In this document: in pieces, positions 1-37,351 of the stretch | Layout: each line of letters begins with the position of its first letter | Position numbering within the stretch: the stretch's first letter is position 1 | The notes under the pieces: generated by a model | The model's database searches: none | Told to the model about the DNA's origin: nothing | Seen by the model: only the letters and a program-made list of their open reading frames with translations | IMG/VR virus record: IMGVR_UViG_3300037882_001661 | Location: 1-37,351 of that record | Source: a virus | DNA length: 37,351 nucleotides | Direction: 5' to 3' (one strand) | Program-made: the position numbers and the translations under genes

Positions 1-145
1 GCTTGCCGTCCTTGTCCAGCGCCTGCGGTTGCAGCGTCATGCGCCAGCAGCCGTTCAGCCACTCGGTGCGGGCCACGCACACGCCAGCAAAGCCGCTCAC
101 GGTGTCGCGGGCCTTGTCGCCCAGTTGCACATTCACCTTGGTCAT
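1..145 (-). CDS. Small conserved phage protein, N-terminal part (continues at 37351)
   Basis: The ATG is at 145-143 and the frame runs off the left edge. The first 48 codons read MTKVNVQLGDKARD, then a GFAGVCVARTEWLNGC segment and end LDKDGK. This resembles short phage proteins of about 70-90 residues of unknown function. The missing C-terminal part (EAQTFDDFQLEV) is found on the same strand at 37351-37223. The sequence upstream of the ATG on the minus strand contains ACTGGAGAACGACG, with GGAG as a ribosome site. The gene lies between two attC-like elements (199-260 and 37162-37222). Gene reality is fairly certain; function is unknown. Confidence 0.75.
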   Translation of the reverse strand, partial: MTKVNVQLGDKARDTVSGFAGVCVARTEWLNGCWRMTLQPQALDKDGK

Positions 146-198
146 CGTCGTTCTCCAGTTGTGCCCATGCGGGCGGTTGGTTTGTCGGCCACCAGTGA

Positions 199-260
199 GG
201 CCGAACTGTCGGTTCAAGCGCGACCCGCCTACGGCGGGCCGCTTAACCTGGCGTTCGTGC
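199..260 (+). repeat. attC-like site A (integron recombination site)
   Basis: The left box GGCCGAAC is at 199-206 and the right box GTTCGTGC at 253-260. The left arm GGTTCAAGCG (211-220) pairs with the right arm CGCTTAACC (240-248) except for one extra base in the left arm, the extrahelical-base feature of attC. The centre is a hairpin, CCCGCC-tac-GGCGGG (224-238). The left box is the exact reverse complement of the right box of site C (GTTCGGCC, 37215-37222), as expected for the two ends of one cassette. The arm sequences resemble known attC arms. The assignment is by eye; no covariance model was run. Confidence 0.7.
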
Positions 261-383
261 GGGCCGTTGTGCCCGCCTCAATTCAATCGTTACGAATAAA
301 AAGGGCTGCATCTCTGCTGCTGCTAGCAAGCTCTTGCGAGCGGTTTGGGAGGAGGTTGCGGACTAGCAGCGCCCGTAAAACTG
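261..383. other. Intergenic spacer between ERF gene and attC-like site A
   Basis: This is a non-coding gap on the minus strand between the ERF stop codon and the next gene. It contains a short GCGGGC/GCCCGC hairpin around 260-277 and an A/T-rich stretch near 290-302. I see no convincing gene, and no U-tract terminator. Confidence 0.4.
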
Positions 384-947
384 TCAGGCCGTTTGCTTGC
401 TAAGTTGGCGAAGCTTGTCGCGTTCAGGAGTCGAAAGACCGGCCCACACGGAGCGGGCCATATCGTCATCCTCGCGGGCAATTTCCCACTCTTGCAAAGC
501 GCCAAGCTCACGATCATTCGCAAGATGGTCTTTTATCGAGTTGGTGATCTTCATGACCTTCGTCCTGTTTGGCCAAGGTTTCGCGGAGTTCCCATCGTCA
601 TCCTCTGTAGCAATGCCACACGCGGCCATTAGTGAATAGCGGCGGGCGTAGGTAAGGGCCGATCCGTATCCTTGCGGGTCTTGCTTCGACGCAGGCAAAG
701 ACAATATGCCAGCACTCAAGGTTTCGCCGGATTCGTGGACGAACACCGTTTCAACAGACACACCACCTTCGCTTGGGTGCTGCTTCTGAATCAGCGCGAT
801 CCCGTTTTCATTCAGTGCGTCAATCACAGCTTCAACACAAGCGGCCAAGTCGGCGTACTTGCTTTTGAAGTGCGGGTTTGTGCTGCTCTTGAGAGCTGGT
901 GCAAAGCCCTTTTGAGCCTTGACGAGTGCGGATGCGATTTTGTCCAT
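384..947 (-). CDS. erf: ERF family single-strand annealing recombinase
   Basis: This 187-residue protein matches the ERF (essential recombination function) superfamily typified by P22 Erf. An N-terminal YADLAACVEAVIDALNENGI segment is followed by the family hallmark GSALTYARRYSLMAACGI and an acidic EDDDGN. ERF proteins anneal complementary single strands during phage recombination and genome circularisation. The ATG at 947 (MDKIAS) is preferred to a TTG two codons upstream. The C-terminal part ends in a short basic/polar tail (LRQLSKQ). It belongs to the leftward early operon, as recombination genes do in lambdoid phages. Confidence 0.9.
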   Translation of the reverse strand: MDKIASALVKAQKGFAPALKSSTNPHFKSKYADLAACVEAVIDALNENGIALIQKQHPSEGGVSVETVFVHESGETLSAGILSLPASKQDPQGYGSALTYARRYSLMAACGIATEDDDGNSAKPWPNRTKVMKITNSIKDHLANDRELGALQEWEIAREDDDMARSVWAGLSTPERDKLRQLSKQTA

Positions 948-1066
948 GACCAAAATGGTGTAGGTTGAAGTGCAAGGGACACAGCGCGAACTGCTGACGC
1001 AAACGGGTTGAACCCGTCGAGGCGGCTTGCGCGGTACTCATAGCGAAGTTGCTGGATTCGTGTCAC
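824..1066 (-). CDS. Small basic protein, doubtful, overlapping erf
   Basis: A GTG start at 1066 follows AAGGA by six bases, a strong ribosome site. The protein begins MTRIQQLRYEYRASR and is basic. Its last 124 bases overlap the start of erf in another frame, which is unusual, and its C-terminal half looks like frame-shadow composition (Ser/Thr/Arg-rich). The real product may be only the N-terminal 35-40 residues, with a lesion in this genome, or the start signal may drive a leader peptide. No family is recognised. Confidence 0.4.
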   Translation of the reverse strand: MTRIQQLRYEYRASRLDGFNPFASAVRAVSLALQPTPFWSWTKSHPHSSRLKRALHQLSRAAQTRTSKASTPTWPLVLKL

Positions 1067-1147
1067 GATCTATCCTTGATTGGGTGCCCCTCCGCCGTGG
1101 TTTGCAGCCGACCCAAAAAGTTAAGGGATGGCGAAGGGGCGGAACGG

Positions 1148-3128: not shown

Positions 3129-3718
3129 GCCAATCAAAGCTAGTCGGTGTGGTTGAGACAGCGGTACACGGCTGCCGTGGTTTCCATGTGCGGCTTGATC
3201 CTAATTCTGAAATGCCGAATGTCGGGACGCCTCTCTATGCCGCCCCCCAGCCTCACAGCCATATTGTTGACGCCAACAAAATGGTTGAACCATTCGGCTA
3301 CTTCCGGCCTGAGCCATTCGGCTGGACTGACTGCGCCGAAACGGACGAGGGCGCGATTCCACTGTATGAGCATCCGCACATATCACACGCAAAACCGGAA
3401 AACCAAGCCGATCACAATAACGGCGTGGCTTGTGTATCACAGACGGTGGCTGCGCAATGCAGACTTGATCGTATTAGATCAGAGATTGAAATGCTTGCTG
3501 TGAGTGACGGGTCACATATAGCCCATCGGATCGACAGATTGGAGATGTTGTTCCACCAGCCAATCAAGCGCGAGCCTCTGACTGATGAGCAGATCGACAA
3601 GCTGCGTTATCAGTCTGTTCAGATATTGAGAAAAGCTATCGACAACAGGGAGACGTCTGACCTGTATTTATTCGCCCGGTTGATCGAGCGAGCTCACGGT
3701 ATTGGGGGTGAATCATGA
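3125..3718 (+). CDS. Phage protein with PLYAAPQ motifs, unknown function
   Basis: It has 197 residues. The ATG at 3125 overlaps the stop of the upstream gene. The N-terminal half carries two related segments ending in GTPLYAAPQ and AIPLYEHP, each preceded by a GF(H/Y)-type strand. This repeat pattern is typical of phage hypothetical proteins that fuse short modules. The C-terminal half is helical and charged (EPLTDEQIDKLRYQSVQIL). Its role is unknown. Confidence 0.65.
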   Translation: MSQSKLVGVVETAVHGCRGFHVRLDPNSEMPNVGTPLYAAPQPHSHIVDANKMVEPFGYFRPEPFGWTDCAETDEGAIPLYEHPHISHAKPENQADHNNGVACVSQTVAAQCRLDRIRSEIEMLAVSDGSHIAHRIDRLEMLFHQPIKREPLTDEQIDKLRYQSVQILRKAIDNRETSDLYLFARLIERAHGIGGES

Positions 3719-3960
3719 CCGCCCCCCAATGGTTCAGCGGCCCGCCTCCTGCTGTTGGGTGGTGGCCTGCTTCTACCCACGGGACACTTGGCTATTACAG
3801 GTGGTGGAACGGCGCATCTTGGTCATGGATTGCTATTGCAAGCGACTCAAAAGCGGATGCTGGACGTATTGCAAAGCGTCTGGATTCAGAAAAAAGAATT
3901 ATTTGGCGTCACTGGTCAATCGACATCGACGGCACGGATGGAAGGGGGGCGCACGAATGA
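3715..3960 (+). CDS. Tryptophan-rich small phage protein
   Basis: It has 81 residues. The ATG at 3715 overlaps the upstream stop (ATGA). It is very rich in tryptophan and proline at the N-terminus (PQWFSGPPPAVGWWPAS, YYRWWNGASWSW). This suggests a small beta-sheet module of a type often found in phage accessory proteins. A longer overlapping reading frame starting at 3702 was not chosen because its first half is out of frame with this coupled start. Confidence 0.6.
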   Translation: MTAPQWFSGPPPAVGWWPASTHGTLGYYRWWNGASWSWIAIASDSKADAGRIAKRLDSEKRIIWRHWSIDIDGTDGRGAHE

Positions 3961-4208
3961 AAAGAGCAGAAGTTGTCGAGCTGGCTCGCAAGGCTCAAAT
4001 GTGCGCTCCTTGGGTCGAGCCTCACCCTGGCGTAGTGCAGCAGCTTGAGCGATTCGCGGCGCTTGTCGAGGAGGCGGAGCGCAGCAAGTGCGCGACTGTT
4101 TGCCGTGATATTGAGGCCCCTCCTAGCTGCAATGACATTGAGCGGATTCTTTGGGGCGTTGCTGTCCGCAAATGCTCACGAGAAGTTGCAGACAGGATCG
4201 ACACATGA
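3957..4208 (+). CDS. Small helical phage protein
   Basis: It has 83 residues, starting MKRAEVVELARKAQM. The ERFAALVEEAERSKCATVCRD segment is of a kind widespread in short phage proteins (ELERFAALV...AERE.CA.VC). Two cysteines follow the helix. Both ends overlap neighbours through ATGA. Function unknown. Confidence 0.7.
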   Translation: MKRAEVVELARKAQMCAPWVEPHPGVVQQLERFAALVEEAERSKCATVCRDIEAPPSCNDIERILWGVAVRKCSREVADRIDT

Positions 4209-4399
4209 GCGACACCGCCACACAAAAAGGCCCAGACCTGACCGGCGTGCAGCGCTTTGCTGGTGTTGGCCACTTAAGCGCTTGGCGCTGCCCCCACTGC
4301 GCAAAGCCTAAGCCGACTCTTGGCAGGCGTCTGAAGTTCCTCAAGAAGTGGGGGCGTACATACATCTGCGCGGACTGCGCGAAGGAGATTGAGAAATGA
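4205..4399 (+). CDS. Small zinc-ribbon-like protein
   Basis: It has 64 residues. Two CxxC pairs, CPHC at residues 30-33 and CADC near residue 58, flank a basic stretch (GRRLKFLKKWG), the layout of a small zinc ribbon. It may bind nucleic acid or a protein partner. The ATG at 4205 is chosen by its overlap with the upstream stop codon. It sits in the replication-proximal part of the rightward operon. Confidence 0.65.
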   Translation: MSDTATQKGPDLTGVQRFAGVGHLSAWRCPHCAKPKPTLGRRLKFLKKWGRTYICADCAKEIEK

Positions 4400-4680
4400 A
4401 CATCGCAATCGTCAGAAACAGCGACCCGATCTCAATTCACCAAGCTGCTGACATGGCCGCAAGCCTGCGCGAGCGCCACAAGCGGCTGATCCTGGCCGAC
4501 CTGAACGCCAACGGCCCAGCCGGTAAAGACCGCATCGCGGCACGCGTCAAGCTGGATGGCGTCCAAGTTTGTAGGAGGCTCAGCGAGCTTGAGCGCCTGA
4601 ACCTCGCCCGTCCAACTGAGCGCATGGAGCGATCCAACTCGGAGCGCTGGGAGCGTGTTTGGGAGGTGGTCGCGGAATGA
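4396..4680 (+). CDS. Winged-helix-like DNA-binding protein
   Basis: It has 94 residues. The central part (RHKRLILADLNANGPAGKDRIAARV, then GVQVCRRLSELERLNLA) has the pattern of a winged helix: a helix, a turn-rich glycine, a recognition helix and a wing with arginines. It lies directly upstream of the replication gene and overlaps it (ATGA). It could regulate or assist replication initiation. The exact family is not identified. Confidence 0.6.
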   Translation: MNIAIVRNSDPISIHQAADMAASLRERHKRLILADLNANGPAGKDRIAARVKLDGVQVCRRLSELERLNLARPTERMERSNSERWERVWEVVAE

Positions 4681-5462
4681 AGCATTACCCGCACCACATT
4701 GGCGACTTCGACAAGGCAACAAGACACCTTAGTCGCCTTGAGCGCAGTGTTTACCGCGACTTGATCGACCTGTATTACGACACCGAGCAGCGCCTTACTT
4801 TGGACATGGCCGCACTGTGTAGGCGTGTTGTCGCCCGTTCCAACGAAGAAGCAACGGCTGTTCAACAGGTGTTGAACGAGTTTTTCATTGAAACGCCAAC
4901 AGGCTGGTATCACGACCGATGCGAAGCAGAGATTGAGGCCTATCACGCCAACACAAGTCAGAAGGCACTAGCCGGTAAGGCCTCAGCGGAGGCAAAAAGG
5001 CTGAAAAGGCAACGGGCGCTCAACGGCGAATCAACAGCCGTTGAACAGCCGTTGAATTCCGTTGCAACAGAAGCCCAACGAAATTCAACTAACCATCAAC
5101 CAATCAACCAATCAACCAATCAACCAAGTAAGAAAGAGCGCGAGCGCTCGCAAGCTATCGCTTGCCCTCCCGTTCCGCCTGAAGGTCTTGATCCAGTTGC
5201 ATGGGATCGATGGGTCGCATATCGCAGCAAGATCAAAAAATCGATCAAGCCGGTATCTGTCGAAGCCGCTCAGGCGCAGATGGCTCGCTATGGGTCTGAT
5301 CAGCAAGCGGTTGTTATGCAGTCAATCGCGATGGGTTGGACTGGCTTGTTTGACCTCAAGGACAACCTGAAAACAAAACCACCTCCGCCACCACCAGCGG
5401 TACGGAATGACGAGGCGAAGCGGTTGTTGTTTGGCGAACAGGGGGAAGTGATCGATGCGTAG
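4677..5462 (+). CDS. DUF1376-type replication protein
   Basis: It has 261 residues. The N-terminal domain begins MKHYPHHIGDFDKAT and continues HLSRLERSVYRDLIDLYYD, the signature of DUF1376 (YdaU-like). This domain is found at the N-terminus of phage replication initiation proteins. A low-complexity linker (NHQPINQSTNQPSKKERE) is encoded by tandem DNA repeats (5093-5124). The C-terminal region has a conserved-looking WDRWVAYRSKIKKSIKP segment and a proline run. It probably recognises an origin located within its own gene, as lambda O does. The ATG at 4677 overlaps the upstream stop. Confidence 0.75.
   Translation: MKHYPHHIGDFDKATRHLSRLERSVYRDLIDLYYDTEQRLTLDMAALCRRVVARSNEEATAVQQVLNEFFIETPTGWYHDRCEAEIEAYHANTSQKALAGKASAEAKRLKRQRALNGESTAVEQPLNSVATEAQRNSTNHQPINQSTNQPSKKERERSQAIACPPVPPEGLDPVAWDRWVAYRSKIKKSIKPVSVEAAQAQMARYGSDQQAVVMQSIAMGWTGLFDLKDNLKTKPPPPPPAVRNDEAKRLLFGEQGEVIDA
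5033..5165. repeat. Iteron-like repeats and palindromes, candidate replication origin
   Basis: Inside the replication gene lie two tandem copies of AACAGCCGTTG (5033-5043 and 5044-5054), with an inverted copy upstream (4852-4862). They are followed by four 8-base repeats, CCATCAAC then three CAATCAAC (5093-5124). A perfect 12-bp palindrome GCGAGCGCTCGC (5140-5151) and a hairpin GCAAGC-tatc-GCTTGC (5150-5165) come next. Iterons plus dyads within an initiator gene is the lambda-type origin plan. Period-8 repeats are not a multiple of three, so they are unlikely to reflect protein selection alone. Confidence 0.55.
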
Positions 5463-6219
5463 GGAAGACTTCGACGAGTTTTCGTCAATGCTGGATGGCG
5501 TGTGCAGCTTGTTGAGCCGTGGGGCATACACCCCGAACGCTCAAAACACGGCGCTCTTCTTCCGCGCCTTGGCTCGGTTTGACATTGCAGCCGTGCGGGC
5601 CGGATTCGATGCTCACGTGAGCGACCCAAAGAATGGGCGGTTCGTGCCAACGCCCGCCGACATCATCGGCCAGATCGAAGGCATCGCCGCCAAAGACGGA
5701 CGGCCCGAGTCTGACGAGGCGTGGGCACTGGCCCTGAAGTGCATCGACGAAATGCAGACGGTCGTATGGACCGCTGAGATTGCGCACGCCTGGGGCATCG
5801 CCAAGCCGGTGCTTGACATTGGCGACAAGGTGGGCGCTCGGATGGCTTTCAAGGCAGCCTACGAATCAGCCGTGGAAAAAGCGCGTGCAGCACGCGAGCC
5901 GCTGTCTTGGTCGGTATCGCTTGGCTTTGACCCAAAGACAAGGAACGCAGTGATTAGCGAGGCTGTGGCGCTCGGTCGCGTTTCCAACACGCTATTGGAG
6001 GCACCCAGCGGCCCCGTGGCTGGACTTTTGGAGCTTACCCAGGCACACGGGTGCCCGCCACACATCAGAGAGCGCCTGTTGCAGATTAAGGCGGAAATCG
6101 CCTCCCCCATCGACTTCGACCAGCAAGAACCACTGCGCATTGACACGCGCACCGATGCGCTCAAGGCGAAACAAGCTGAGGCAGTGAAGCGGTACGAGCA
6201 AGGAAAGGGTAGGGCATGA
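5455..6219 (+). CDS. Putative helicase loader / replication accessory protein
   Basis: It has 254 residues and overlaps the replication gene by 8 bases. The N-terminal part (ALFFRALARFDIAAVRAGFDAHV, then GRFVPTPADIIGQIE) has the pattern of helicase-loader N-domains: helices followed by a basic residue and a PTxADI motif. The middle is helical. The C-terminal region carries charged segments (LKAKQAEAVKRYEQGKGRA). Position after the initiator is that of lambda P or a DnaC-like loader. No Walker motif is seen, so it is not an AAA+ DnaC type. The function is inferred from context and pattern. Confidence 0.55.
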   Translation: MRREDFDEFSSMLDGVCSLLSRGAYTPNAQNTALFFRALARFDIAAVRAGFDAHVSDPKNGRFVPTPADIIGQIEGIAAKDGRPESDEAWALALKCIDEMQTVVWTAEIAHAWGIAKPVLDIGDKVGARMAFKAAYESAVEKARAAREPLSWSVSLGFDPKTRNAVISEAVALGRVSNTLLEAPSGPVAGLLELTQAHGCPPHIRERLLQIKAEIASPIDFDQQEPLRIDTRTDALKAKQAEAVKRYEQGKGRA

Positions 6220-6413
6220 GCGCAGATCAACGCCTAGCCCTTATCAAGCCCGTCATCGAAGCGCAGCAGGACCAGCGAGAGTGGGCATATCGACTGCGCA
6301 ACCGTGAGATCAACGGCACTGGGCTGACCAAATTCCAGCGCGATGCGTGGCGCGAAGCCTTGGGCCTGCCATTGACGGCACCAGCAAGAACAAAAACGGG
6401 AGAGCAAGCATGA
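6216..6413 (+). CDS. Small phage protein
   Basis: It has 65 residues, starting MSADQRLALIKPVIEAQQ, and is charged and helical, with GTGLTKFQRDAWREALGLP in the middle. It overlaps both neighbours by ATGA. No family is recognised. Confidence 0.6.
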   Translation: MSADQRLALIKPVIEAQQDQREWAYRLRNREINGTGLTKFQRDAWREALGLPLTAPARTKTGEQA

Positions 6414-6976
6414 GCGGAATCAAAACACTGGAAGACATACGCCAGCGTTGCAGGATAGACCAGGACTCGAAGTGCTGGGATTGGGGTGGCGGAATCACGG
6501 TGATTCGGGGATCAGAGGTTGCATACCTGCACTACAGCCCGGATGGGACGAAGGAGACGCGAAAGCAAATGCCCGCCGGTCGGGCGGCATGGATTGCCAG
6601 CGGACGCAAAGCCGAGAAAGGCCAAGTCGTCTATCGCTGCTGCAATACCAAGCTGTGCTGCAACCCAGCCCACATGAAATGCGGGACGAAGAAAGAGGCG
6701 GGCGCTTTCTTGTCTGAATCTGGCAAATTCAAAAACCAGCCGACTCGCATCAAGGCCAATATCAAAAGCTGCATGAAGCAGATGATCCCGCTTGAACGAG
6801 TGCGCGCAGTGGAACATGCTATTGCATCTGGGATGCTCAGAAAAGACATTGCCGCAGCGCTGAATATCAACGAGGCAACAATCACCAAGATTTCAAGCGG
6901 GCGGCATATGTACTCATCAGGAAGGCAACCAGTTATAAAACAGGCGTCAATCTTTTCAATGGGGATGGCAGCATGA
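6410..6976 (+). CDS. HNH endonuclease
   Basis: It has 188 residues. The segment VVYRCCNTKLCCNPAHMKCG followed by TKKE is the HNH_3-type core (C..LC.NP.H...GT...N), with the histidine of the CNPAH motif as metal ligand. An N-terminal CWDWGG precedes it. A C-terminal helix-turn-helix-like stretch (GMLRKDIAAALNINEATITK) probably binds DNA. This is the arrangement of free-standing phage homing endonucleases. The start is set by ATGA overlap, so it is embedded in the operon without disrupting it. Confidence 0.75.
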   Translation: MSGIKTLEDIRQRCRIDQDSKCWDWGGGITVIRGSEVAYLHYSPDGTKETRKQMPAGRAAWIASGRKAEKGQVVYRCCNTKLCCNPAHMKCGTKKEAGAFLSESGKFKNQPTRIKANIKSCMKQMIPLERVRAVEHAIASGMLRKDIAAALNINEATITKISSGRHMYSSGRQPVIKQASIFSMGMAA

Positions 6977-7476
6977 GCAAGAACAAAAAGCCTGCGAAGA
7001 AGTACCGGCCGCGCCTTGTCAATCCGGCGATGATTCTGAATCAAGTCTTGATGCGTGCTCAGGCATTGGCAAGCACCGACAAGCTCGAAGACAGCCAGCA
7101 AACCGCTTTAAGCCTGCGCAATTGGGCTAGCTTCAACGCTATCACAAAAGGAAATGGCGAAGAGTTTCACGCCAATGATTTGGTGAACGCCGCAAATGTG
7201 GCGCTGGTTATGGCTGAGGCCGGCCTAGGCCGCGAGTTCATTCCGCATATTCGCGCAGCTCAAAGATCAATCGTCACGATGGGTGCAAGGCACGAGCAGC
7301 GCGGTAAATGGCTGTTCACCGGGCAGGAGATTCAACTCGTCCGCGAAATGCTTGAGATTCACGACGCGCAATTGCAGAGCGACGATTGCACCGAGGGATA
7401 TTTGATGAAGTGCATCGAAGAAGTGAAGGCGCGAATTGTGCGTGGGCAGGTTGATAAGCTGGAGGCGTTAGCGTGA
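6973..7476 (+). CDS. Conserved phage protein of unknown function
   Basis: It has 167 residues. It begins with a lysine-rich segment (MSKNKKPAKKYRPRLVNP) and continues as a helical protein (LNQVLMRAQALASTDKLEDS; VNAANVALVMAEAGLGREF). It lies between the HNH gene and ninB and overlaps both. The basic N-terminus suggests nucleic-acid contact, but no domain is recognised. Confidence 0.65.
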   Translation: MSKNKKPAKKYRPRLVNPAMILNQVLMRAQALASTDKLEDSQQTALSLRNWASFNAITKGNGEEFHANDLVNAANVALVMAEAGLGREFIPHIRAAQRSIVTMGARHEQRGKWLFTGQEIQLVREMLEIHDAQLQSDDCTEGYLMKCIEEVKARIVRGQVDKLEALA

Positions 7477-7925
7477 AGCTGACGATCAAGCTCCTTGACG
7501 CGCAGCGAGGATACAAAGCCTTCACCCAGCTATGGCAAGACATCAAGCCTGTGTTGATGGCGGGTAAGCTGATAACAGTAACAGCAAAATCCGACACGCG
7601 AACTATTGAGCAGAACTCTTTGATGTGGAGCTGCCTTACTGATTTATCGATTCAAGTCACATGGCCAGATGGTAGAAGAATGACACCAACAGGATGGAAA
7701 GATTATTTCACTGGTCATATTGATGGGCAAGAAATGTTTCCCAATATGGAAGGCAACGGGTTTATAATAGTCGGGCGTGGGAAATCAACCAGCGATATGA
7801 CAATCCGTGAAATGTCGCATGTTATAGAGCTTGCGCATTTATTCGGCGATAAGCAGCAAATCAAATGGTCGAAAACCTCTCTCGGTCGTGATTGGCCTGA
7901 AGAAGTATGCGAGCCCCAACGCTGA
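7473..7925 (+). CDS. ninB: NinB recombination protein
   Basis: It has 150 residues, matching the NinB (lambda Orf) family: TRTIEQNSLMWSCLTDLSIQ, then GWKDYFTGHI, EGNGFIIVGRGKSTSDMT and MSHVIELAHLFG. NinB/Orf binds single-stranded DNA and SSB and substitutes for RecFOR functions in phage recombination. The GTG start at 7473 overlaps the upstream stop (GTGA). Base composition is more A/T-rich than its neighbours. It pairs with NinG downstream, as in lambda. Confidence 0.88.
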   Translation: MKLTIKLLDAQRGYKAFTQLWQDIKPVLMAGKLITVTAKSDTRTIEQNSLMWSCLTDLSIQVTWPDGRRMTPTGWKDYFTGHIDGQEMFPNMEGNGFIIVGRGKSTSDMTIREMSHVIELAHLFGDKQQIKWSKTSLGRDWPEEVCEPQR

Positions 7926-8491
7926 AGGCTAAGAAATGCAAGGTGTGCCGGGATGAGTTCATTCCGCGCAACCCGATGCAGACAGTTTGCGGGCCTGCCT
8001 GCGCTTACGAGATAGTCAAGCGGGCAGCAGACAAGAAGGCCAAGCAAGCCCAGGCCGCAGAGCGCAAGGCCGACAAGGCGAAGCGGAAGCAGCTAAAGAA
8101 CATCAGCCAGCTCGAAGAGGATTGCCGCAAGATCGTGCAGAAGATGGCGCGAATCCGTGACCGAAACGATGGGTGCATCTCATGCCATGTCGGCCCGAAC
8201 TACGGTGGCCAGTGGCACGGGTCGCACTACCGCTCACACGGCGGCTGTTCTTCGCTGCAATTCCACCTTTGGAATATTCACAAGTCCTGCGCTCAGTGCA
8301 ACTGGTTCAAGGGCGGAAACCGTGAGGGCTACATACAAGGGCTTCTCTCAAAGCCGGGGTATGACCGAGAGCGCATCGAATGGCTAGACAGTCAGCCAAA
8401 GTCAAAGAGGTTCAGCCGCGAGTATTTGGCGCGGTTCAAGGTGGTGATGAGTAAAAGGCTTCAACGCATGGAGAAGGCAAAACATGGATGA
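7907..8491 (+). CDS. ninG: NinG / Rap recombination endonuclease
   Basis: It has 194 residues, matching the NinG family (lambda Rap). The N-terminal zinc-binding part has KCKVCRDEF and VCGPACAYE. A long basic coiled-coil-like stretch (KKAKQAQAAERKADKAKRKQ) follows. The C-terminal nuclease-like domain has CISCHVG, QWHGSHYRSHG, NIHKSCAQCNWFKGGN and a final YLARFK. Rap is a structure-specific endonuclease that cuts D-loops and branched DNA. The ATG overlaps ninB by 19 bases. Confidence 0.9.
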   Translation: MRAPTLKAKKCKVCRDEFIPRNPMQTVCGPACAYEIVKRAADKKAKQAQAAERKADKAKRKQLKNISQLEEDCRKIVQKMARIRDRNDGCISCHVGPNYGGQWHGSHYRSHGGCSSLQFHLWNIHKSCAQCNWFKGGNREGYIQGLLSKPGYDRERIEWLDSQPKSKRFSREYLARFKVVMSKRLQRMEKAKHG

Positions 8492-8738
8492 TCTTGCAAA
8501 ACAAGAGAGTGAAATTGCGATTCTGGTCGCTCGCATCAAGTCCTCATCATTGCTCAGTGCTTGTGATTCCAAAGAGCCATTTGACCGCACCATCAATGGG
8601 ATTCCTCTTGCGTATGCTTTCTTTCAGGTGCTTGTCGAAGTTGGTGAATGCAGCGGGAATGATCAATCCTGGAACGAGTTTCTTGTAGATGCCTTGCACG
8701 AGGTAATACAAAAATCTGAAGAGAGCTACACAAACTGA
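8484..8738 (+). CDS. Small acidic phage protein
   Basis: It has 84 residues, starting MDDLAKQESEIAILVARIK, and is acidic and helical with one cysteine pair region. It overlaps ninG by 8 bases. No family is recognised. It ends 20 bases before the antiterminator candidate. Confidence 0.6.
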   Translation: MDDLAKQESEIAILVARIKSSSLLSACDSKEPFDRTINGIPLAYAFFQVLVEVGECSGNDQSWNEFLVDALHEVIQKSEESYTN

Positions 8739-8758
8739 CGGCTAGAGAAGGAGAGAGC

Positions 8759-9136
8759 ATGACAGACGAAACCGCACGGATCATTGACGATCTCTTAGCC
8801 CGCTGGCATCGCTGGTGCGACAGGCCGCCGATTGATGGTGGCTACCCAACCGAGTGCCCCTCCTGCCGTGGATACCGCACATCAAAGCAGTACGACGACA
8901 CCAACGGCGCGCTAGACACCGATATTGAGGGACGCATGATGATCGGTCTGGACACACTCATTCACGGCACGCTAGAGGGCCAGCACCTCGCGGCAATTCA
9001 GTGCAACGCCCGCAATCTGGCTATCGGCGCATCTGTCTTCCGCACTCCACGCATCTCAGCCGAGGACATGCAGGCGCGTATCGGTGAGGCTCGCTCAATG
9101 CTGGCTTGTGCGCTGAGTAAGTCGGGGATCATTTAG
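8759..9136 (+). CDS. Candidate late-gene antiterminator (Q-like)
   Basis: It has 125 residues. AGAAGGAGAGAGC precedes the ATG, a strong ribosome site. The N-terminal segment IIDDLLARWHRWC resembles the start of several Q-type antiterminators. A zinc-ligand-like GYPTECPSCRGYRTS follows. The function is inferred mainly from position: last gene of the rightward early operon, followed by a promoter and terminator of pR'-tR' type (9664-9743). Its 3' end overlaps the convergent HTH gene by 8 bases. It could instead be another small zinc protein. Confidence 0.55.
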   Translation: MTDETARIIDDLLARWHRWCDRPPIDGGYPTECPSCRGYRTSKQYDDTNGALDTDIEGRMMIGLDTLIHGTLEGQHLAAIQCNARNLAIGASVFRTPRISAEDMQARIGEARSMLACALSKSGII

Positions 9137-9302
9137 CCGTCTTAAGCTTGAAAAGCTCCCAGAAAGCTGGGTCCATTCGCCTGTTTCCGGCTTCCCATTC
9201 TTGCCAACCTCGCAGCGTCTTGTAAATGAGCGCAGCGGCGGCGGTTTGGGAAAGGTCCGCAGCTTGGCGGGCGGCCCTGATTTGCTCAGGGGTCGGATTA
9301 AT
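9129..9302 (-). CDS. HTH transcriptional regulator (XRE-like), ATT start
   Basis: It has 57 residues. TPEQIRAARQAADLSQTAAA, LIYKTLRGWQEWEAGNRRM and FWELFKLKTAK form a helix-turn-helix of the type common in Burkholderiales phages. The family normally begins M-N-P-T, and here the matching codon is ATT (9302-9300). There is no ATG, GTG or TTG in frame nearby, and GAGGAG lies ten bases upstream. The ATT overlaps the stop codon of the upstream gene. It probably binds the palindrome at 9600-9612 in its own promoter. Its transcript runs antisense into the Q-like gene. Confidence 0.65.
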   Translation of the reverse strand: MNPTPEQIRAARQAADLSQTAAAALIYKTLRGWQEWEAGNRRMDPAFWELFKLKTAK

Positions 9303-9525
9303 ACAGCAGCGCCTCCTCGCTGCTGTACGCGCTGTGCGCGTCACAGGGCGCAAGCCCTGTCCAGCAGGTCCAATAAGGACCTGCTGAGCCCGTGAGCTGC
9401 CCGAACTCGGGCTGCCCGAGCGCCAAGCGCTCAACGAGCGGGCGGGCTGCCCACTCGTTTAAATGAGACGACACCATTTCGGCGTCGTCAAATGAAAGGC
9501 CGGAGAATGCTTGCTTTGCGGTCAT
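9298..9525 (-). CDS. Protein upstream of HTH regulator, C-terminal half made of hairpin DNA
   Basis: It has 75 residues, starting MTAKQAFSGLSFDDAEMVSS. The HLNEWAARPLVERLALGQPE segment looks like ordinary coding sequence. The remaining residues are encoded by an almost unbroken chain of perfect hairpins (9302-9489), so this part may be an insertion or an RNA element rather than a selected protein sequence. It is expressed from the leftward promoter at 9594-9621 and overlaps the HTH gene. No family is recognised; a partner role (antirepressor or toxin/antitoxin-like) is possible only from context. Confidence 0.55.
   Translation of the reverse strand: MTAKQAFSGLSFDDAEMVSSHLNEWAARPLVERLALGQPEFGQLTGSAGPYWTCWTGLAPCDAHSAYSSEEALLY
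9302..9489. repeat. Chain of consecutive hairpins
   Basis: Consecutive inverted repeats: TACAGCAGCG/CGCTGCTGTA (9302-9327, 10 bp), ACGCGC/GCGCGT (9327-9341), ACAGGGC-gcaa-GCCCTGT (9343-9360, GNRA-type loop), CAGCAGGTCC/GGACCTGCTG (9362-9386, 10 bp), CTCGGG/CCCGAG (9406-9420), GAGCGC/GCGCTC (9418-9432), CGAGcGGGC/GCCCaCTCG (9435-9457) and GACGAC/GTCGTC (9467-9489). None is followed by a U-tract. The chain covers most of a leftward gene. Confidence 0.85.
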
Positions 9526-9593
9526 GATGTTGCTTCACTTCTAGACCCGGAGCCGCCGGGGCGGTGGACAACTTGCTGCTGTCCATGGGCTCT

Positions 9594-9621
9594 ATTATGC
9601 ACGCATTGCGTGTGATGTCAA
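9594..9621 (-). promoter_or_regulatory. Leftward promoter with internal operator palindrome
   Basis: On the minus strand a consensus -35 TTGACA (9621-9616) and a -10 CATAAT (9599-9594) are separated by 16 bp. The spacer holds the 13-bp perfect palindrome CACGCA-a-TGCGTG (9600-9612). A protein bound there would block RNA polymerase, the usual autoregulation layout. The promoter drives 9525-9129. Confidence 0.75.
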
Positions 9622-9663
9622 CAACCACACAAAGCACTCAGGTATTGGCCGCAAGCTGGCCTA

Positions 9664-9692
9664 TTGACACATACGAAAAACAGTGATTGAAT
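9664..9692 (+). promoter_or_regulatory. Late promoter, pR'-like
   Basis: The -35 is TTGACA (9664-9669), followed by a 17 bp spacer ending in TGA (extended -10) and a -10 TTGAAT (9687-9692). Transcription should begin near 9699 and meets a terminator about 10 bases later. This is the arrangement of lambdoid late promoters controlled by Q antitermination. Confidence 0.7.
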
Positions 9693-9709
9693 AACCCCCG
9701 AGTAATTGC

Positions 9710-9743
9710 GCCCGCACGGTCTGACATGCGGGCGTTTTCGTTT
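9710..9743 (+). terminator. Intrinsic terminator, tR'-like
   Basis: Stem GCCCGCA (9710-9716) and TGCGGGC (9727-9733) with a 10-base loop is followed by GTTTTCGTTT. It lies just downstream of the predicted late transcription start and upstream of the terminase genes. A short RNA of about 40 bases would be made unless antitermination occurs. Confidence 0.75.
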
Positions 9744-9791
9744 CTGCGACTTGCTGGCGCTTTCCAGCATGAGAGCCGAAAGGCGAGCGAT

Positions 9792-10064
9792 ATGGACACA
9801 GTGACCAAAAGTGCCAGCAAGCGAAAGCCGCCTGCAAAGGGCGGGTCACGCAAGGGCATCCCCAACAAAATGACGCGCGAAGTCAAGGAAATGATCCTTG
9901 AGGCGCTTGGTGACGCTGGTGGTGTTGACTACTTGACGCAGCGAGCCCTAGACCCGCGCACGGCGTCGGCATTTCTGGGGCTGGTTGGAAAAGTGTTGCC
10001 GATGCAGGTTCAGGGCGACCCGAATAACCCGCTGCGGCATCATCTGACCATCAGCTTCAAGTGA
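9792..10064 (+). CDS. Terminase small subunit-like protein
   Basis: It has 90 residues. The ATG at 9792 follows AAGGCGAG. A basic N-terminus (ASKRKPPAKGGSRKGIPNKM) is followed by EVKEMILEALGDAGGVDYLT and ASAFLGLVGKVLPMQVQ. This pattern is common in short phage proteins encoded directly before the large terminase, where they act in DNA recognition. The 3' end overlaps the large subunit (GTGA). The reading frame is open further upstream, but the extra part overlaps the terminator hairpin. Confidence 0.75.
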   Translation: MDTVTKSASKRKPPAKGGSRKGIPNKMTREVKEMILEALGDAGGVDYLTQRALDPRTASAFLGLVGKVLPMQVQGDPNNPLRHHLTISFK

Positions 10065-11326
10065 ATATCGAGTTTCCGGCAAAGCTGAAGCCACTGTTTC
10101 GGCCGTGCCGGTACAAGGTCTATCACGGTGGGCGAGGGTCTGGAAAGTCTTGGGGTGTTGCCCGTGCGCTGCTGATTCAGGCTGCTAGTCAGAAACTCCG
10201 TGTACTTTGCACTCGTGAGGTGCAGAAAAGCCTAAAAGAATCGGTCCACGCACTGTTGAGTGATCAGGTGGAAGCGATGGGTCTATCCGGCTTCTATGAG
10301 GTGCTTGAAAGCGAGATACGCGGCAAGAACGGCAGCGTGTTTCTATTTGCTGGCTTGCAGCAGCACACGGTTGACTCGATCAAGTCATTTGAGGGTTGTG
10401 ATCGTGTGTGGGTTGAAGAAGCTCAGTCAGTGAGCGGCAAGAGTTGGGACGTTCTGATTCCGACGATTCGCAAGCCTGGGTCTGAGATTTGGATCACGTT
10501 GAATCCACAGTTGGACAGCGACGAGACTTATCAGAGGTTCATCGCCATTCCGCCGCCAGATGCGACGGTGGTTGAGATGAACTACAGCGACAACCCATTC
10601 TTCCCTGCTGTGCTAGAGACTGAACGGGCACACGCGCAAGCCACGATGAAGGCCGAAAAGTACGCGCACATTTGGGAAGGCAAATGCATGCCTGCGGTCG
10701 ATGGCGCGATTTACTTCGATGAAGTGTCGAAGGCTCAGGACGAAGGGCGGATCACACGGGTATCGCCTGACAAGCTGCTGAGAACACATGTGGTGTTCGA
10801 CTTGGGCTGGAATGATGCAATGTCCATCATCATGGTGCAGCGGTCTGCATCAGAGTTGAGGGTGGTGGACTACATCGAGGACAGCCACAAGAAGCTGTCG
10901 GACTACTCGGACATGCTAAAGGCCAAGCCGTACAACTGGGGCAGCGTTTGGCTACCTCACGACGGCTTCAGCAAGGACTACAAGACCGGCAAGAGTGCGG
11001 AAGAGATGATGAAGGCGATGGGCTGGAAAGTCTCACGCACTCCAAACATGGACATTGAGGGCGGCATTAAAGCGGCCCGCGAGGTGTTCGACAGGGTTTG
11101 GTTAGACAAGGAAAAAGCCGCTCGCTTGGTCGAGTGTCTGAAGCGCTACCGGCGCAACATTGGGCAGAAGACCGGCGAGGCTGGATCACCTATACATGAT
11201 AAGTTCAGTCACGGCGCGGATGCTTTCCGGTATCTGGCGCTGTGTGCTGACCAGTTGACTAACACTGACAAGAAGCGAACAAAGGTCAATCTAGACGAGC
11301 CTTCGGGCTCTTGGATGAGCAGCTAA
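10061..11326 (+). CDS. Terminase large subunit, PBSX/XtmB type
   Basis: It has 421 residues, the usual length for the family. The N-terminal ATPase has Walker A GGRGSGKSWGVA (residues about 22-33) and Walker B DRVWVEEAQ (near residue 116), then the coupling motif ITLNPQ. The C-terminal RNase H-like nuclease has acidic residues at HVVFDLGWNDAMS, VWLPHDG and HDKFSHGADAFRY. It cuts and pumps concatemeric DNA into the prohead through the portal. It is of PBSX type rather than the P22 gp2 type. The GTG start at 10061 overlaps the upstream stop. Confidence 0.93.
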   Translation: MNIEFPAKLKPLFRPCRYKVYHGGRGSGKSWGVARALLIQAASQKLRVLCTREVQKSLKESVHALLSDQVEAMGLSGFYEVLESEIRGKNGSVFLFAGLQQHTVDSIKSFEGCDRVWVEEAQSVSGKSWDVLIPTIRKPGSEIWITLNPQLDSDETYQRFIAIPPPDATVVEMNYSDNPFFPAVLETERAHAQATMKAEKYAHIWEGKCMPAVDGAIYFDEVSKAQDEGRITRVSPDKLLRTHVVFDLGWNDAMSIIMVQRSASELRVVDYIEDSHKKLSDYSDMLKAKPYNWGSVWLPHDGFSKDYKTGKSAEEMMKAMGWKVSRTPNMDIEGGIKAAREVFDRVWLDKEKAARLVECLKRYRRNIGQKTGEAGSPIHDKFSHGADAFRYLALCADQLTNTDKKRTKVNLDEPSGSWMSS

Positions 11327-33662: not shown

Positions 33663-34675
33663 GTGGCATACATCAGGAAACGCGGCAAAACGTGGCAGGC
33701 AATCGTCAGGGTCAAAGGGCATCCAGACGTAAGCGCGACACGACCGACAAAGGCTGAAGCAACGTATTGGGCGCAGGCCGAAGAGGCGGCGATTCGGGCA
33801 GGCCAGCGCGGGCAGTACCCGGTGAAGACTTTCGCCGATGCACTCGATAGGTACGCCCTGGAAATCACTGCACTGAAAGCCACACACGGCAAAGAAACGC
33901 TGCGCTTGATGGCAATGAAGCGAGACTTCCCCAAGCTCGCGGCTATGCAGTTCTCAGAGGTCAAGTCATCCGACCTCGCCGCTTGGCGCGATTCCCGCCT
34001 GCGTGAAGTCACCCCAGGCTCAGTGCAGCGCGACATCAATCTCTTTCGCAACGTCTGGACAGTGGGCCGCAAGGAATGGGGCTGGTGCGGTGACAACACC
34101 CTTGGTCGAATCTGCGGATGCCTGGGCAGAATCGCCCGCGTGAAACGGTTTGGCGCTGGCAGGACATCCGGTGTGTCTTGCGTCACATGCACTACAGAAC
34201 CGGCCTAGTCCCATGTTCGGCCATTCATGAGCTTGCGTACATGTTCCTCATCGCACTCACAACAGGCATGAGAGCTGGCGAAATCATGGGCCTGAAGCGC
34301 TCAGACATCGACCTTGACCGGCGCGTGATCCTGCTCGAATCTCACAAGACCTCTCGCCTTGTCGGGGCTCGCCGCGTGCCGATCTACAAGCGGGCCGCGA
34401 AGATCATCAAGGCCGCAATGCAAGGCGAAGGCGGCAAAGACGGCGCTTTGTGGGCCATGTCGGAGAAGTCACGCGACACCCTGTTTCGGCGCTACTCTCG
34501 TGCAGCCGGTGTGTCTGGCCTGACGTTTCACGATGCTCGCGCTACCTTTGCCACGCTCACGGCACGCAAGACAGACCCGCTAACGCTTGCCAAGATTTTG
34601 GGGCATCGTGACATGACTCAGTTGGTCAAGACGTATTTTCGGGAAGACGAGGCGCAGATAGCGGCGCGGCTCTAG
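33663..34675 (+). pseudogene. int: Tyrosine integrase, split by a frameshift
   Basis: The GTG at 33663 is preceded by GGGTGAGAGAC. The first frame encodes the N-terminal arm-binding (MAYIRKRGKTWQAIVRVKG) and core-binding domain (AAWRDSRLREVTPGSVQRDI). After GWCGDN (about 34097) the homologous sequence continues in another frame (PWSNLRMPGQNRPRE, open from 34094 to 34675). One missing base would restore a protein of about 337 residues, normal for the family. The catalytic residues are all present: R (34271-34273), H-x-x-R (34529-34540), H (34604-34606) and Y (34634-34636). It may be a sequencing error, a real lesion, or less likely a recoding site. Confidence 0.85.
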
Positions 34676-35080: not shown

Positions 35081-35305
35081 TTACGGCGTTCCGCCGAACC
35101 TCACCTCCGGCGGGTTCGACTGCTTCCACTCCGGGTCTGGGTGCAGCCCGTTTGGGCCGTAGATGTCCACCAGCTCCCAGCACTCGCCGCCGCACTTGGG
35201 GCAATAGCGCGTGTCTGTCATGGTTTCATCGCCCTGCCAAGCGCACTCAACACACTCCACGGTGATGCCTCGGATGTTGTTTGCCATGTCAAACTCTGCT
35301 ATCAA
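35081..35305 (-). CDS. Zinc-binding small protein
   Basis: It has 74 residues from the ATG at 35305, which overlaps the stop of the Lar-like gene (ATGA); an internal ATG at 35287 (MANNIRG) is an alternative. VECVECAW and YCPKCGGEC form a four-cysteine zinc ribbon, followed by DIYGPNGLHPDPEWKQSNPP. Two zinc proteins in a row suggest related or cooperating functions in the early operon. Confidence 0.65.
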   Translation of the reverse strand: MIAEFDMANNIRGITVECVECAWQGDETMTDTRYCPKCGGECWELVDIYGPNGLHPDPEWKQSNPPEVRFGGTP

Positions 35306-35520
35306 GCTGCCTGTTCGGCGTCGTCGTCATCGACCACGGTTGCCGGTTCATCGTCGTGGTAACGGCGGTTCCAGTTGGCAATCGCACCAGGGCGCGTTGG
35401 GTCACTCTCTGCATCACAGCCACACTCTTCGCAGCGCACCCAGCAGGCGTGGTGGTTGGTGCGGCAAATTTTTACCTCGTGGCTACCGCAAAACGGGCAG
35501 CACTTAATAGCTTCTGTCAT
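35302..35520 (-). CDS. Lar-family restriction alleviation-like protein
   Basis: It has 72 residues. CCPFCGSHEVKICRTNHHAC, WVRCEECGCDAES, then GAIANWNRRYHDD match the Lar family pattern (CPFCG...V.C..CG.....T...AI..WNRR). Rac prophage Lar modulates type I restriction of incoming DNA; the role here is by family only. The C-terminus is acidic (DEPATVVDDDDAEQAA). Confidence 0.8.
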   Translation of the reverse strand: MTEAIKCCPFCGSHEVKICRTNHHACWVRCEECGCDAESDPTRPGAIANWNRRYHDDEPATVVDDDDAEQAA

Positions 35521-35790: not shown

Positions 35791-35900
35791 GCTTTGTATC
35801 TCCGTATTCGTGCCAAACTATCCGCTCAAAATGACGCGGAACGGCATGGTTTTTTAATCTTAGCTTGGGAGCGCCGCGCCCATTAGCTCCACTTTGGGCG

Positions 35901-36062
35901 TCATTCCTTCACCCGGTCTATCCAGTCCCGCAGCCGCTGGTGGCCTATTCGTTGCAGCTTCGCTTTCTGCGCGTCGTTCAGACGCACCGGAACCGGCCGC
36001 AGCTTTTCCTCGGGCGGCAGCGCAGGCCGCCCGGTGGTCTTCGGTTCGGCCTTGGCTCTCAT
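35901..36062 (-). CDS. Small basic helix protein, possible regulator
   Basis: It has 53 residues: MRAKAEPKTTGRPALPPEEK, LRPVPVRLNDAQKAKLQRIG and HQRLRDWIDRVKE. A basic N-terminus, then a strand (RPVPVRL) followed by helices is the outline of small ribbon-helix-helix proteins. ATG at 36062 overlaps the upstream stop. Confidence 0.65.
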   Translation of the reverse strand: MRAKAEPKTTGRPALPPEEKLRPVPVRLNDAQKAKLQRIGHQRLRDWIDRVKE

Positions 36063-36370
36063 TCCGCCCACTCGCTCACGTCGGCAGCAACGGCCACGCG
36101 CACGTCACCCAGGTCGATCACGGTCAGTTCGCGGCGCGTGTCACCCTTGCGGGCCTGCACCTCGCCGAAGTACACGCAGCGCAGGCCAGCCACGCGGCAT
36201 TCACGCACGCAGCCCAGTTCGTTCCAGCCTTCGCTGGCCGCCACGAACTGGTCCAGCGTGTCGGCAGTCTCTGTGGCCGTCACCATCCAGGTGCCGCCTT
36301 CGTACTCGGCGTCGTACAGGTCGCCGCCAGTGGCTTGGTGCAGGGCTTGCAGGGCTTCGGTCTTGGTCAT
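36059..36370 (-). CDS. Phage protein of unknown function
   Basis: It has 103 residues. GGAGAGCAAG precedes the ATG. MTKTEALQALHQATGGDLYD, WMVTATETADTLDQFVAASE and ELTVIDLGDVRVAVAADVSE; alternating helices and strands. No family recognised. It is the first gene in the operon beyond the attC-like array. Confidence 0.65.
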   Translation of the reverse strand: MTKTEALQALHQATGGDLYDAEYEGGTWMVTATETADTLDQFVAASEGWNELGCVRECRVAGLRCVYFGEVQARKGDTRRELTVIDLGDVRVAVAADVSEWAE

Positions 36371-36495
36371 CTTGCTCTCCGGTGGGTTGCTGCGCTTCGT
36401 GCTGCAGTGGAGTTAATGTAATACAACAACGCGCAGCATGCCAGTGATTTCCGTAATACCGTATCGGCGAGCATGGTCTTTCTCGCTTCGGGCGC
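36371..36495. other. Spacer left of attC-like site D
   Basis: Non-coding. It contains an 8-bp inverted repeat TGCTGCGC (36388-36395)/GCGCAGCA (36431-36438) enclosing an A/T-rich TTAATGTAATACAACAA stretch, which could carry a leftward promoter or be the remnant of a primary attachment site. Confidence 0.35.
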
Positions 36496-36557
36496 AGCCG
36501 AACAAAAATTGCTGAAGCGGATTGCCTTCGGCTCCTGCTTAGATCAAGCATTCGGCC
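36496..36557 (+). repeat. attC-like site D, core triplet altered
   Basis: Left box AGCCGAAC (36496-36503), right box ATTCGGCC (36550-36557). The arms TGAAGC (36513-36518) and GCTTA (36537-36541) pair with one extra base on the left, and GCC-ttc-GGC lies in the centre. The right box would pair 7 of 8 with the left box of site B (GGCCGAAC). The core GTT is ATT here, which should abolish or reduce recombination. The stop codon of the gene at 36560 follows two bases after the box. Confidence 0.55.
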
Positions 36558-36559
36558 TC

Positions 36560-36835
36560 TTACTCCACGCGCCGCGCAGAAGCCGCCGCCGCCATGCATA
36601 TGTCCACCATCGCAATGGGCATCCATAACATATTTGAAAGCACTTCGACCATTTCGTCACGGGTTGGATCAACCCCGCGCAAAGTAACTTTGTACTCCGG
36701 GACTTTGCAGAAGTCGAGAGTCCATTCGCGGCCCGGCTTGTTGTGCTGAAGCACAAGGGGCGAATAAGTAATGGGGCCAAATGTAGGTGGTGGCGAAACC
36801 TCAATTCCGCTCATGTCGATGGCGCTCATGTTCAT
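36560..36835 (-). CDS. Conserved-type small phage protein in cassette D-B
   Basis: It has 91 residues. ATG at 36835 chosen because AAAGGA lies ten bases upstream. NMSAIDMSGIEVSPPPTFGP, YSPLVLQHNKPGREWTLDFC and YKVTLRGVDPTRDEMVEVLS. Beta-rich with a C-terminal helix; no family recognised. It occupies the interval between attC-like sites D and B. Confidence 0.65.
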   Translation of the reverse strand: MNMSAIDMSGIEVSPPPTFGPITYSPLVLQHNKPGREWTLDFCKVPEYKVTLRGVDPTRDEMVEVLSNMLWMPIAMVDICMAAAASARRVE

Positions 36836-36859
36836 CACTATCCTTTCGCTTCGGCACCG

Positions 36860-36916
36860 GGCCGAACTGGTCAATCAAGCCGACCTAAGTCGGCGGCTTA
36901 GCTCAATCGTTGGGGC
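36860..36916 (+). repeat. attC-like site B
   Basis: Left box GGCCGAAC (36860-36867), right box GTTGGGGC (36909-36916). The arms TCAAGCCG (36875-36882) and CGGCTTA (36894-36900) pair except for one extra C on the left. Central hairpin CCGAC-ctaa-GTCGG (36880-36893, sharing bases with the left arm). Its right box is the exact reverse complement of the left box of site C, not of its own left box. The segment from TCAAGC to the GTT box reads very like known attC sites (TCAAGCCGAC ... GGCTTAGCTCAATCGTT). Confidence 0.75.
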
Positions 36917-36922
36917 GCTCAT

Positions 36923-37138
36923 TCACTGCGGTGATTCTTTTTTCACAGTCACGGTGTACTTCTCGCCTCCGCCTTGAATCTCGAATGTTCCGCCGTGAAA
37001 CTCAGCCTTCTCAATCACGGCCCGCAGTACGTCGCTTGTGATGTCCTGCTTCTCGCCAACGAAAGAATTTCCGTCCTTGTTCACACGGCCACGGAACACG
37101 CGTCCCGTCAGCGGTGAAACTCCAATTCTTGCGGTCAT
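36923..37138 (-). CDS. DUF7446-like small phage protein in cassette B-C
   Basis: It has 71 residues. ATG at 37138 follows AAGGAAACCT. TARIGVSPLTGRVFRGRVNK, KQDITSDVLRAVIEKAEFHG and GGEKYTVTVKKE match a short phage family I recall as DUF7446 (GVSPLT...G...K.G..F...KQDVT.....V). Role unknown. It lies between attC-like sites B and C; its stop codon is six bases from site B. Confidence 0.75.
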   Translation of the reverse strand: MTARIGVSPLTGRVFRGRVNKDGNSFVGEKQDITSDVLRAVIEKAEFHGGTFEIQGGGEKYTVTVKKESPQ

Positions 37139-37161
37139 AGGTTTCCTTGTTTCCAACTAGC

Positions 37162-37222
37162 GCCCCAACTCTGCGTTGCAGCGCGACCAGCTACGCGGGC
37201 CGCTGAACTCCGGTGTTCGGCC
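37162..37222 (+). repeat. attC-like site C
   Basis: Left box GCCCCAAC (37162-37169), right box GTTCGGCC (37215-37222). Arms GTTGCAGCG (37175-37183) and CGCTGAAC (37201-37208) pair with one extra base on the left. The segments CTGCGTTGCAGCG and CCGCTGAACTCC are close to known attC arms. Left box pairs perfectly with the right box of B; right box pairs perfectly with the left box of A. Confidence 0.75.
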
Positions 37223-37351
37223 TCACACCCGCGCCGGGTCACGCGGCCGGGCAGGGGCATCGCGCGGGCCGCCGGTTTCCTTGCTGCCCACCGGCTGCAG
37301 CTTCGGCTCGGTCACTTCGAGCTGGAAGTCATCGAACGTCTGCGCCTCGCA
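37223..37351 (-). CDS. Small conserved phage protein, C-terminal part (start at 145)
   Basis: On the minus strand the frame enters from the right edge with CEAQTFDDFQLEVTEPKLQP and ends at TGA (37225-37223). It is the expected C-terminal half of the gene at 145-1 (LDKDGK then EAQTFDD). A direct join of the two ends is two bases short of an open frame, so a few bases are missing at the contig ends or the join contains an error. The stop abuts attC-like site C. Confidence 0.75.
   Translation of the reverse strand, partial: CEAQTFDDFQLEVTEPKLQPVGSKETGGPRDAPARPRDPARV

Follow-up and report, generated by a model that had tools for sequence, protein, structure and literature searches.

Probable integron-type gene cassettes between erf and int in the early operon of a temperate phage

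We conclude, with a probability of about 0.83, that a region between erf and int in the leftward early operon of a temperate phage is an array of gene cassettes delimited by integron attC sites. The phage is represented by record IMGVR_UViG_3300037882_001661, and "the window" refers to this whole stretch of 37,351 nt. attC sites are the recombination sites through which bacteria exchange antibiotic-resistance genes. Phage early regions are known mosaics in which one can seldom see what exchanges individual genes. In this case the sites of exchange are defined at single-base resolution, which makes it possible to predict and test how early and anti-defence genes come and go. The array ties phages to the pool of integron genes in their hosts, and viral genes are apparently traded as mobile cassettes, with different genes in the same slot of related viruses.

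attC sites in a phage early operon

The window encodes a portal, a coat protein and a terminase together with an integrase and Erf (PF16510, PF11651, PF04466, PF00589 and PF04404), as expected of a temperate P22-like phage, and the host order is probably Burkholderiales. The erf gene lies upstream of the array and within the same operon. One frameshift divides the integrase into two ORFs (33663-34208 and 34118-34675). Its homologue in G001 (IMGVR_UViG_3300019776_000579), the nearest relative as judged by Erf, is an uninterrupted 336-aa ORF; the frameshift is either a sequencing error or the mark of a broken integrase. Parts of the window had no match in INPHARED by megablast or blastn, and an Rfam scan of the window returned zero families at the gathering threshold. 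A Lar-like restriction-alleviation gene (PHROG 599, 35302-35520, - strand) lies in the same operon just past the array, an anti-restriction neighbourhood.

384..953, - strand: Erf-type ssDNA annealing protein gene (PF04404 E = 5e-25, PHROG 2324 E = 1.5e-45)
33663..34675, + strand: phage tyrosine integrase, not IntI (PF00589; no TIGR02249 match)

The record is classed as linear, and joining its ends leaves the gene across the junction shifted by 2 nt. We infer that the ends are adjacent, with a join that is off by about 2 nt (a base or two), because of the continuity of this gene, the Erf-int synteny and the 8/8 pairing of attC sites C and A across the junction; terminal repeats were not the basis. 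The cassette that the initial annotation had drawn across the junction is upheld by the pairing and the adjoining ends, but in a linear record and with an inexact join.

To build a covariance model (R1), we took five plasmid-borne attC sites of class 1 integrons (aadA1 in two contexts, a DUF1010 cassette, aadA16 and aadA5) and aligned them with their R/L box structure, without any window sequence. When the 37-kb window was searched with R1, sites D, B, C and A were the four best matches, all on the + strand, and site E was the fifth candidate. A second, phage-trained model (R2) had D in its training set and E outside it. The E-values derive from short model calibrations and are hence rough.

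36496..36557, + strand: attC site D, the first clear array site in the attC direction, with an ATT core in R'' (R1 16.5 bits, E = 0.02)
36860..36916, + strand: attC site B (R1 34.2 bits, E = 1.3e-7)
37162..37222, + strand: attC site C (R1 19.9 bits, E = 0.002)
199..260, + strand: attC site A (R1 26.0 bits, E = 3e-5)
35811..35900, + strand: site E, a probable degenerate attC with R'' TTTGGGCG (R1 14.0 bits, E = 0.12 in 37 kb)
271..296, + strand: right half only of a further attC, with L''-like GCCTCAATT and core GTTACGAA (alignment with G001)

Because the independent model recovers all four, we take D, B, C and A to be attC sites. The initial annotation had placed four sites here and had named a covariance-model search as the check; both the position check and the R1 matches agree with it. 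All four have the R' (RYYYAAC), L', L'' and R'' (GTTRRRY) boxes and the extra L' base. A, B and C have full GTT cores; the core of D is ATT. When A was aligned with aadA5 the arm layout was the same, and class 1 attC sites (aadA1, aadA5 and aadA16) share the R'/L'/L''/R'' layout, the TTCAAGCSGAC arm, the length of 57-62 bp and the extra L' base. The cargo of class 1 integrons is resistance genes, whereas that of the window is small phage genes. Chromosomal integrons of Burkholderiaceae/Acidovorax have the same attC class: the identity between A and Acidovorax attC sites is 84-89%, with 89% reached over 45 bp of a site in an integron of an Acidovorax MAG. Site C shares 24 bp at 96% identity with the G001 attC at 1007-1094.

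R2 gave 37.2 bits for D, a member of its training set, and 19.9 bits for E, outside that set (E-value 0.03, 374 kb searched). Site E abuts the stop codon of gene 35901-36071. The half site at 271..296 forms the Erf-side end of the array and is homologous to a complete G001 site at 382-471 (R2 E = 0.003). Over about 0.75 Mb of related phage loci, R1 matched, beyond the class 1 controls, only TJE1 243-294, and TJE1 is a phage with attC sites already published. Across 40 sites, the L-box helix showed 82 double-change cells against 24 in shuffles, in an alignment that had been fitted to the structure, and sliding the helix abolished this signal. The identity of the window sites as integron attC is thus supported, and recombination by IntI at G|TT would be predicted from their sequence.

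Cassette ends, genes and direction

Integron recombination cuts R'' between G and TT. One end of a cassette therefore carries the R' that belongs to it and the opposite end the TT-half of the R'' it came with, and this TT-half ends up inside the R'' of the preceding site. In the window, R'' of B pairs with R' of C at 8/8 positions, R'' of C with R' of A at 8/8 and R'' of D with R' of B at 7/8, just as had been read from the sequence at the outset, and such pairing is general across arrays. In a test set of 37 sites from 9 phage and prophage arrays, R' matched the preceding R'' at 4.18 of 5 outer bases, its own R'' at 3.11 and the next R'' at 3.18; when R'' was shuffled within arrays the mean was 3.29 (sd 0.14), and the observed value was reached in 0 of 5000 shuffles. 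The Acidovorax MAG integron, as a bacterial control, displayed the same signature as the phage arrays (4.14 preceding, 3.00 own, 2.71 next), with complementary cassette ends likewise, and the pattern was stronger in phage contig G361 (IMGVR_UViG_3300044990_001033; 4.80, 2.17 and 1.40). Since R' matches the preceding R'' best, we read the intervals as gene cassettes. The earlier statement that the boxes do not pair within a site was too strong, as 3-4 of 5 outer bases do pair, plus AAC with GTT in A, B and C.

36551..36909, no strand: cassette D-B, 359 bp from R'' core to R'' core, ends complementary at 5/5 outer bases
36910..37215, no strand: cassette B-C, 306 bp (R'/R'' neighbour pairing)
37216..37351, no strand: cassette C-A, first part (R'' of C with R' of A, 8/8)
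1..253, no strand: cassette C-A, second part, across the contig junction (whole about 389 bp; same 8/8 pairing)
36560..36835, - strand: cassette gene in D-B, about 91 aa, no Pfam or PHROG family (codon score +13.6 on -, -4.1 on +)
36836..36859, - strand: leader next to attC, with RBS GGTGCCGAAGCGAAAGGATAGTG, common to the Ideonella prophage and Accumulibacter arrays
36923..37138, - strand: cassette gene in B-C, 71 aa, DUF7446 / PHROG 1578 (Pfam PF24233 E = 8.6e-19)
145..1 and 37351..37223, - strand: cassette gene in C-A, PHROG 16275 (N-half E = 2.6e-10; joined protein 4e-14)
36059..36370, - strand: gene between E and D, 103 aa, no family (codon score)
36362..36429, - strand: conserved promoter/RBS-like block at the int-side array end (83% to G044 8132-8198)

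A single ORF together with one attC was found in each of D-B, B-C and C-A, and the R'/R'' signature and ORF scoring both bear out the proposal of three cassettes with one small gene each. The C-A protein was joined by hand with one placeholder residue at the junction, and its halves were retested separately. The gene at 36059..36370 is probably the first cassette. When a partner was sought for R' of the first site, the relative G044 (IMGVR_UViG_3300006802_000313) showed a match at 8/8 positions; in the window, GTTCGGCC, 8 bp past the stop codon of this gene, matches the R' of D at only 4/5 outer bases, which is suggestive only. No IMG/VR relatives were found for this gene or for the D-B gene. 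The conserved block at 36362..36429 adjoins D and has the motif order TATTACATTAA...CACTGCAGCA...GGAGAGCAA-ATG, and its G044 counterpart lies just outside the int-side attC at 8013-8071. This block is possibly a promoter or an array anchor.

Gene direction was assigned by codon scoring trained per record on its own long genes; a plain stop-codon test was too noisy in this GC-rich DNA and was replaced. In 34 of 35 phage intervals the cassette genes were antiparallel to attC, and the sole exception was a G001 interval with an ORF overlapping the sites. The ORF on the attC strand that is usual, if not universal, for bacterial cassettes is therefore not a feature of the phage arrays. Curated families or deposited annotations point the same way for the window's DUF7446 gene, the methyltransferases in G044, DHH in G361 and the genes of MW202573 and PH101. 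On the coding strand each unit reads attC, RBS, gene and stop, with the stop codon at, or a few bases from, the R'' of the next site. In some arrays (window B, Ideonella and Accumulibacter) a conserved leader, GGTGCCGAAGCGAAAGGA, starts each gene immediately after attC. As a search pattern the full exact leader, GCCGAAGCGAAAGGAYAGTGATG, was too specific, and a shorter leader gave matches. Since the genes are antiparallel to attC, they would be read by the phage operon, and in a bacterial integron they would face away from Pc. If this is true, the cassettes would be active from a phage promoter and silent in a host integron.

DNA matches between arrays covered almost only attC and the leader, and the gene bodies differed. 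The cargo includes known phage families (DUF7446, PHROG 16275, Mom-like and DHH), and the only gene shared between arrays was a Dcm methyltransferase, in G044 and G361 (54%). The initial annotation had also expected the window cassettes to be sought in host integrons; none was found there or in other arrays, in the small samples searched. DUF7446 homologues at loci L081-L084 had no flanking attC, and DUF7446 was not found in 300 genomes of the host order.

Related arrays and sources of integron integrase

Most of the relatives are metagenome contigs. G001 is 91% then 96% identical to the window on the Erf side and 84% on the int side, and everything between differs; its attC sites lie at 1007-1094, 1382-1483 and 1900-1959, with a fourth at 382-471.

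289..386, no strand: Erf-side flank (96% identical in G001; the array beyond differs)

On the Erf side the homology reaches window position 289, the G of core GTTACGAA, past which there are five mismatches, a 9-bp L''-like stretch in common with G001 and no homology after it. The int-side border at 34875 has no attC. The expectation that breakpoints in relatives would fall at the GTT core is thus borne out at the Erf-side border, beyond which G001 has another array, but not at the int-side border. From sequence comparison, the difference between the two arrays could also be compatible with ordinary phage mosaicism.

G044 has 12 attC sites at 319-8071, their intervals each containing one or two genes, and four DNA methyltransferases of three Pfam families are among its about 13 cassette genes. 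MW202573, a complete and circular genome and the best catalogued match to the window portal (38% identity), has clear attC sites at 2068, 2280 and 2618, plus weaker ones. Searching with a pattern derived from attC turned up Ideonella livida TBM-1, the Acidovorax MAG, whose integron has nine attC sites, and a Candidatus Accumulibacter contig, which has eight. In I. livida TBM-1, a region that IMG/VR classes as prophage has three attC sites beside a phage integrase and a Mom-like gene. This DNA modification gene (2979-3524; PHROG 1384, E = 3e-35) lies between two attC sites. R1 found no attC in coat-protein relatives (up to 84% identical), and R2 gave one marginal match (L104, E = 0.08); the array is therefore not constant within the structural lineage. 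The early regions of these relatives were unrelated to that of the window and offered no clean empty site.

A TIGR02249 search of the window found no IntI, and no attI was recognised there. The window thus holds at least two consecutive attC sites with no intI nearby (a CALIN) and not the intI and attI of a complete integron. G361, however, encodes a full IntI at 6645-7661 (- strand; TIGR02249 466 bits, cut-off 265) that is 60% identical to an Acidovorax IntI, followed about 0.4 kb away by the start of an array of six attC sites (8019-10495). The same contig encodes TerL, a minor tail protein, a head-tail joining protein and a primase, and its cassette genes, which include a PHROG 4771 DHH gene, are antiparallel to attC and in the same direction as intI. 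G361 apparently carries a phage-borne complete integron, in a metagenome contig where an assembly fault is possible. Host integrons have intI, and the Acidovorax cassette genes are all on the attC strand, whereas the phage arrays have reversed genes and, except for G361, no intI. The consistent reversal and the intI in one phage contig point to a phage-adapted integron and not to chance capture of host DNA.

IntI was present in 4 of 4 bacterial genomes reached via the attC pattern, and R2 found attC in 110 of 151 genomes of the Ideonella family, the host family, with host sites of up to 67 bits. This frequency of attC and IntI in host genomes makes IntI in trans plausible. A review describes SOS control of intI (PMC8876359), which would couple IntI supply to prophage induction. 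In Vibrio cholerae experiments, excision is governed by how attC is oriented with respect to the fork (PMC11023631), and by analogy replication may be relevant to phage cassette dynamics too.

Turnover, alternatives and published phage integrons

We propose that a unit of attC, RBS leader, one small phage gene and stop would be inserted as a circle by integron integrase with a cut at G|TT, and that the phage early promoter, not the integron Pc, would express the cassettes as an operon. IntI would most likely be supplied in trans from host chromosomal integrons, SOS-inducible like prophages, and in some relatives a phage-borne intI at the array end may be its source. More broadly, and tentatively, since we put it a little below even odds, temperate phages of Burkholderiales and relatives may keep an integron system of their own: reversed cassettes (attC-RBS-gene) would form a pool specific to phages, IntI from the host or the phage would reshuffle them within the early operon, and the pool would supply exchangeable early and anti-restriction genes (methyltransferases, Mom-like and others). 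The cassettes may also confer a selective benefit through their anti-restriction cargo.

The most serious competitor, which we regard as unlikely, is that the array is real but dead: the sites would be relics of old captures, and the differences between phages would stem from homologous or illegitimate recombination and not from IntI. The ATT core of D, the degenerate E and the truncated last site fit such decay, yet A, B and C retain full cores, L-box folds and cassette ends matched at 5/5, and the L-box helix covaries. The window has no IntI, but an intact intI is present in one related contig. The int-side border with G001 lies away from any attC, as the dead array would allow; against this, the array content has been wholly replaced between flanks of 84-96% identity.

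We consider it very improbable that the hairpins are phage regulators (a terminator, an anti-terminator or translation control before each RBS) with a convergent likeness to attC. On the coding strand each is indeed closely followed by a conserved RBS leader and an ORF, and attC hairpins can affect expression. Weak terminator activity of attC hairpins is cited in Qi et al. 2023 (PMC9892861). However, sequence and structure match integron attC down to the extra left base, identity to a bacterial attC reaches 89%, and R' pairs with the neighbour's R'', for which regulation has no need. Misassembly, or host integron DNA falsely joined to phage, is hardly credible: the record is metagenomic, linear and offset in frame at the junction, but the same layout occurs in several independent records, including the circular, complete MW202573 and the I. 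livida genome, with known phage families in the cargo (DUF7446, PHROG 16275, Mom-like, DHH) and genes opposite in direction to those of host integrons.

Active cassettes remain our preferred reading, and the claim of a new mode of phage modular evolution holds in part, as the cassettes are present here but attC clusters in phages have been published. Qi et al. 2023 (PMC9892861) described 17 CALINs in phages along with a small number of complete integrons, found that 5 of 6 tested phage attC sites recombined with attI1 and noted methyltransferase cargo; their report of phage integron cassettes therefore partly pre-empts this claim. The phage CALINs in that study (TJE1, PH101, P12002L and MW202573) are likewise attC clusters without intI, with one or a few small genes per interval and, as in the arrays described here, DNA methyltransferase cargo. 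The present arrays differ in reaching 12 attC sites, in lying between erf and int of temperate phages and in carrying recognised phage gene families in antiparallel orientation. Complete integrons are known from Vibrio anguillarum p16, P1 L-II and Shewanella M16-3 (PMC9892861), in which, as in G361, intI is followed by an attC array; their arrays have host cargo and trace back to host or clinical integrons, whereas G361 has reversed cassettes that include phage genes.

In PMC9892861 and the open-licence PMC papers searched, preprints aside, the following are not described: arrays of up to 12 attC sites in temperate-phage early operons, consistently antiparallel genes, the attC-RBS leader, cassette cargo from recognised phage families, statistics on R'/R'' neighbour pairing in phage arrays, full array replacement between conserved phage flanks and intI beside a reversed array. 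By our model MW202573 and PH101 are antiparallel and TJE1 is parallel, and PMC9892861 reports no antiparallel arrangement. In Pseudoalteromonas phage H101 (PH101, KR534323), at 76528-77988, two published attC sites lie opposite the annotated genes.
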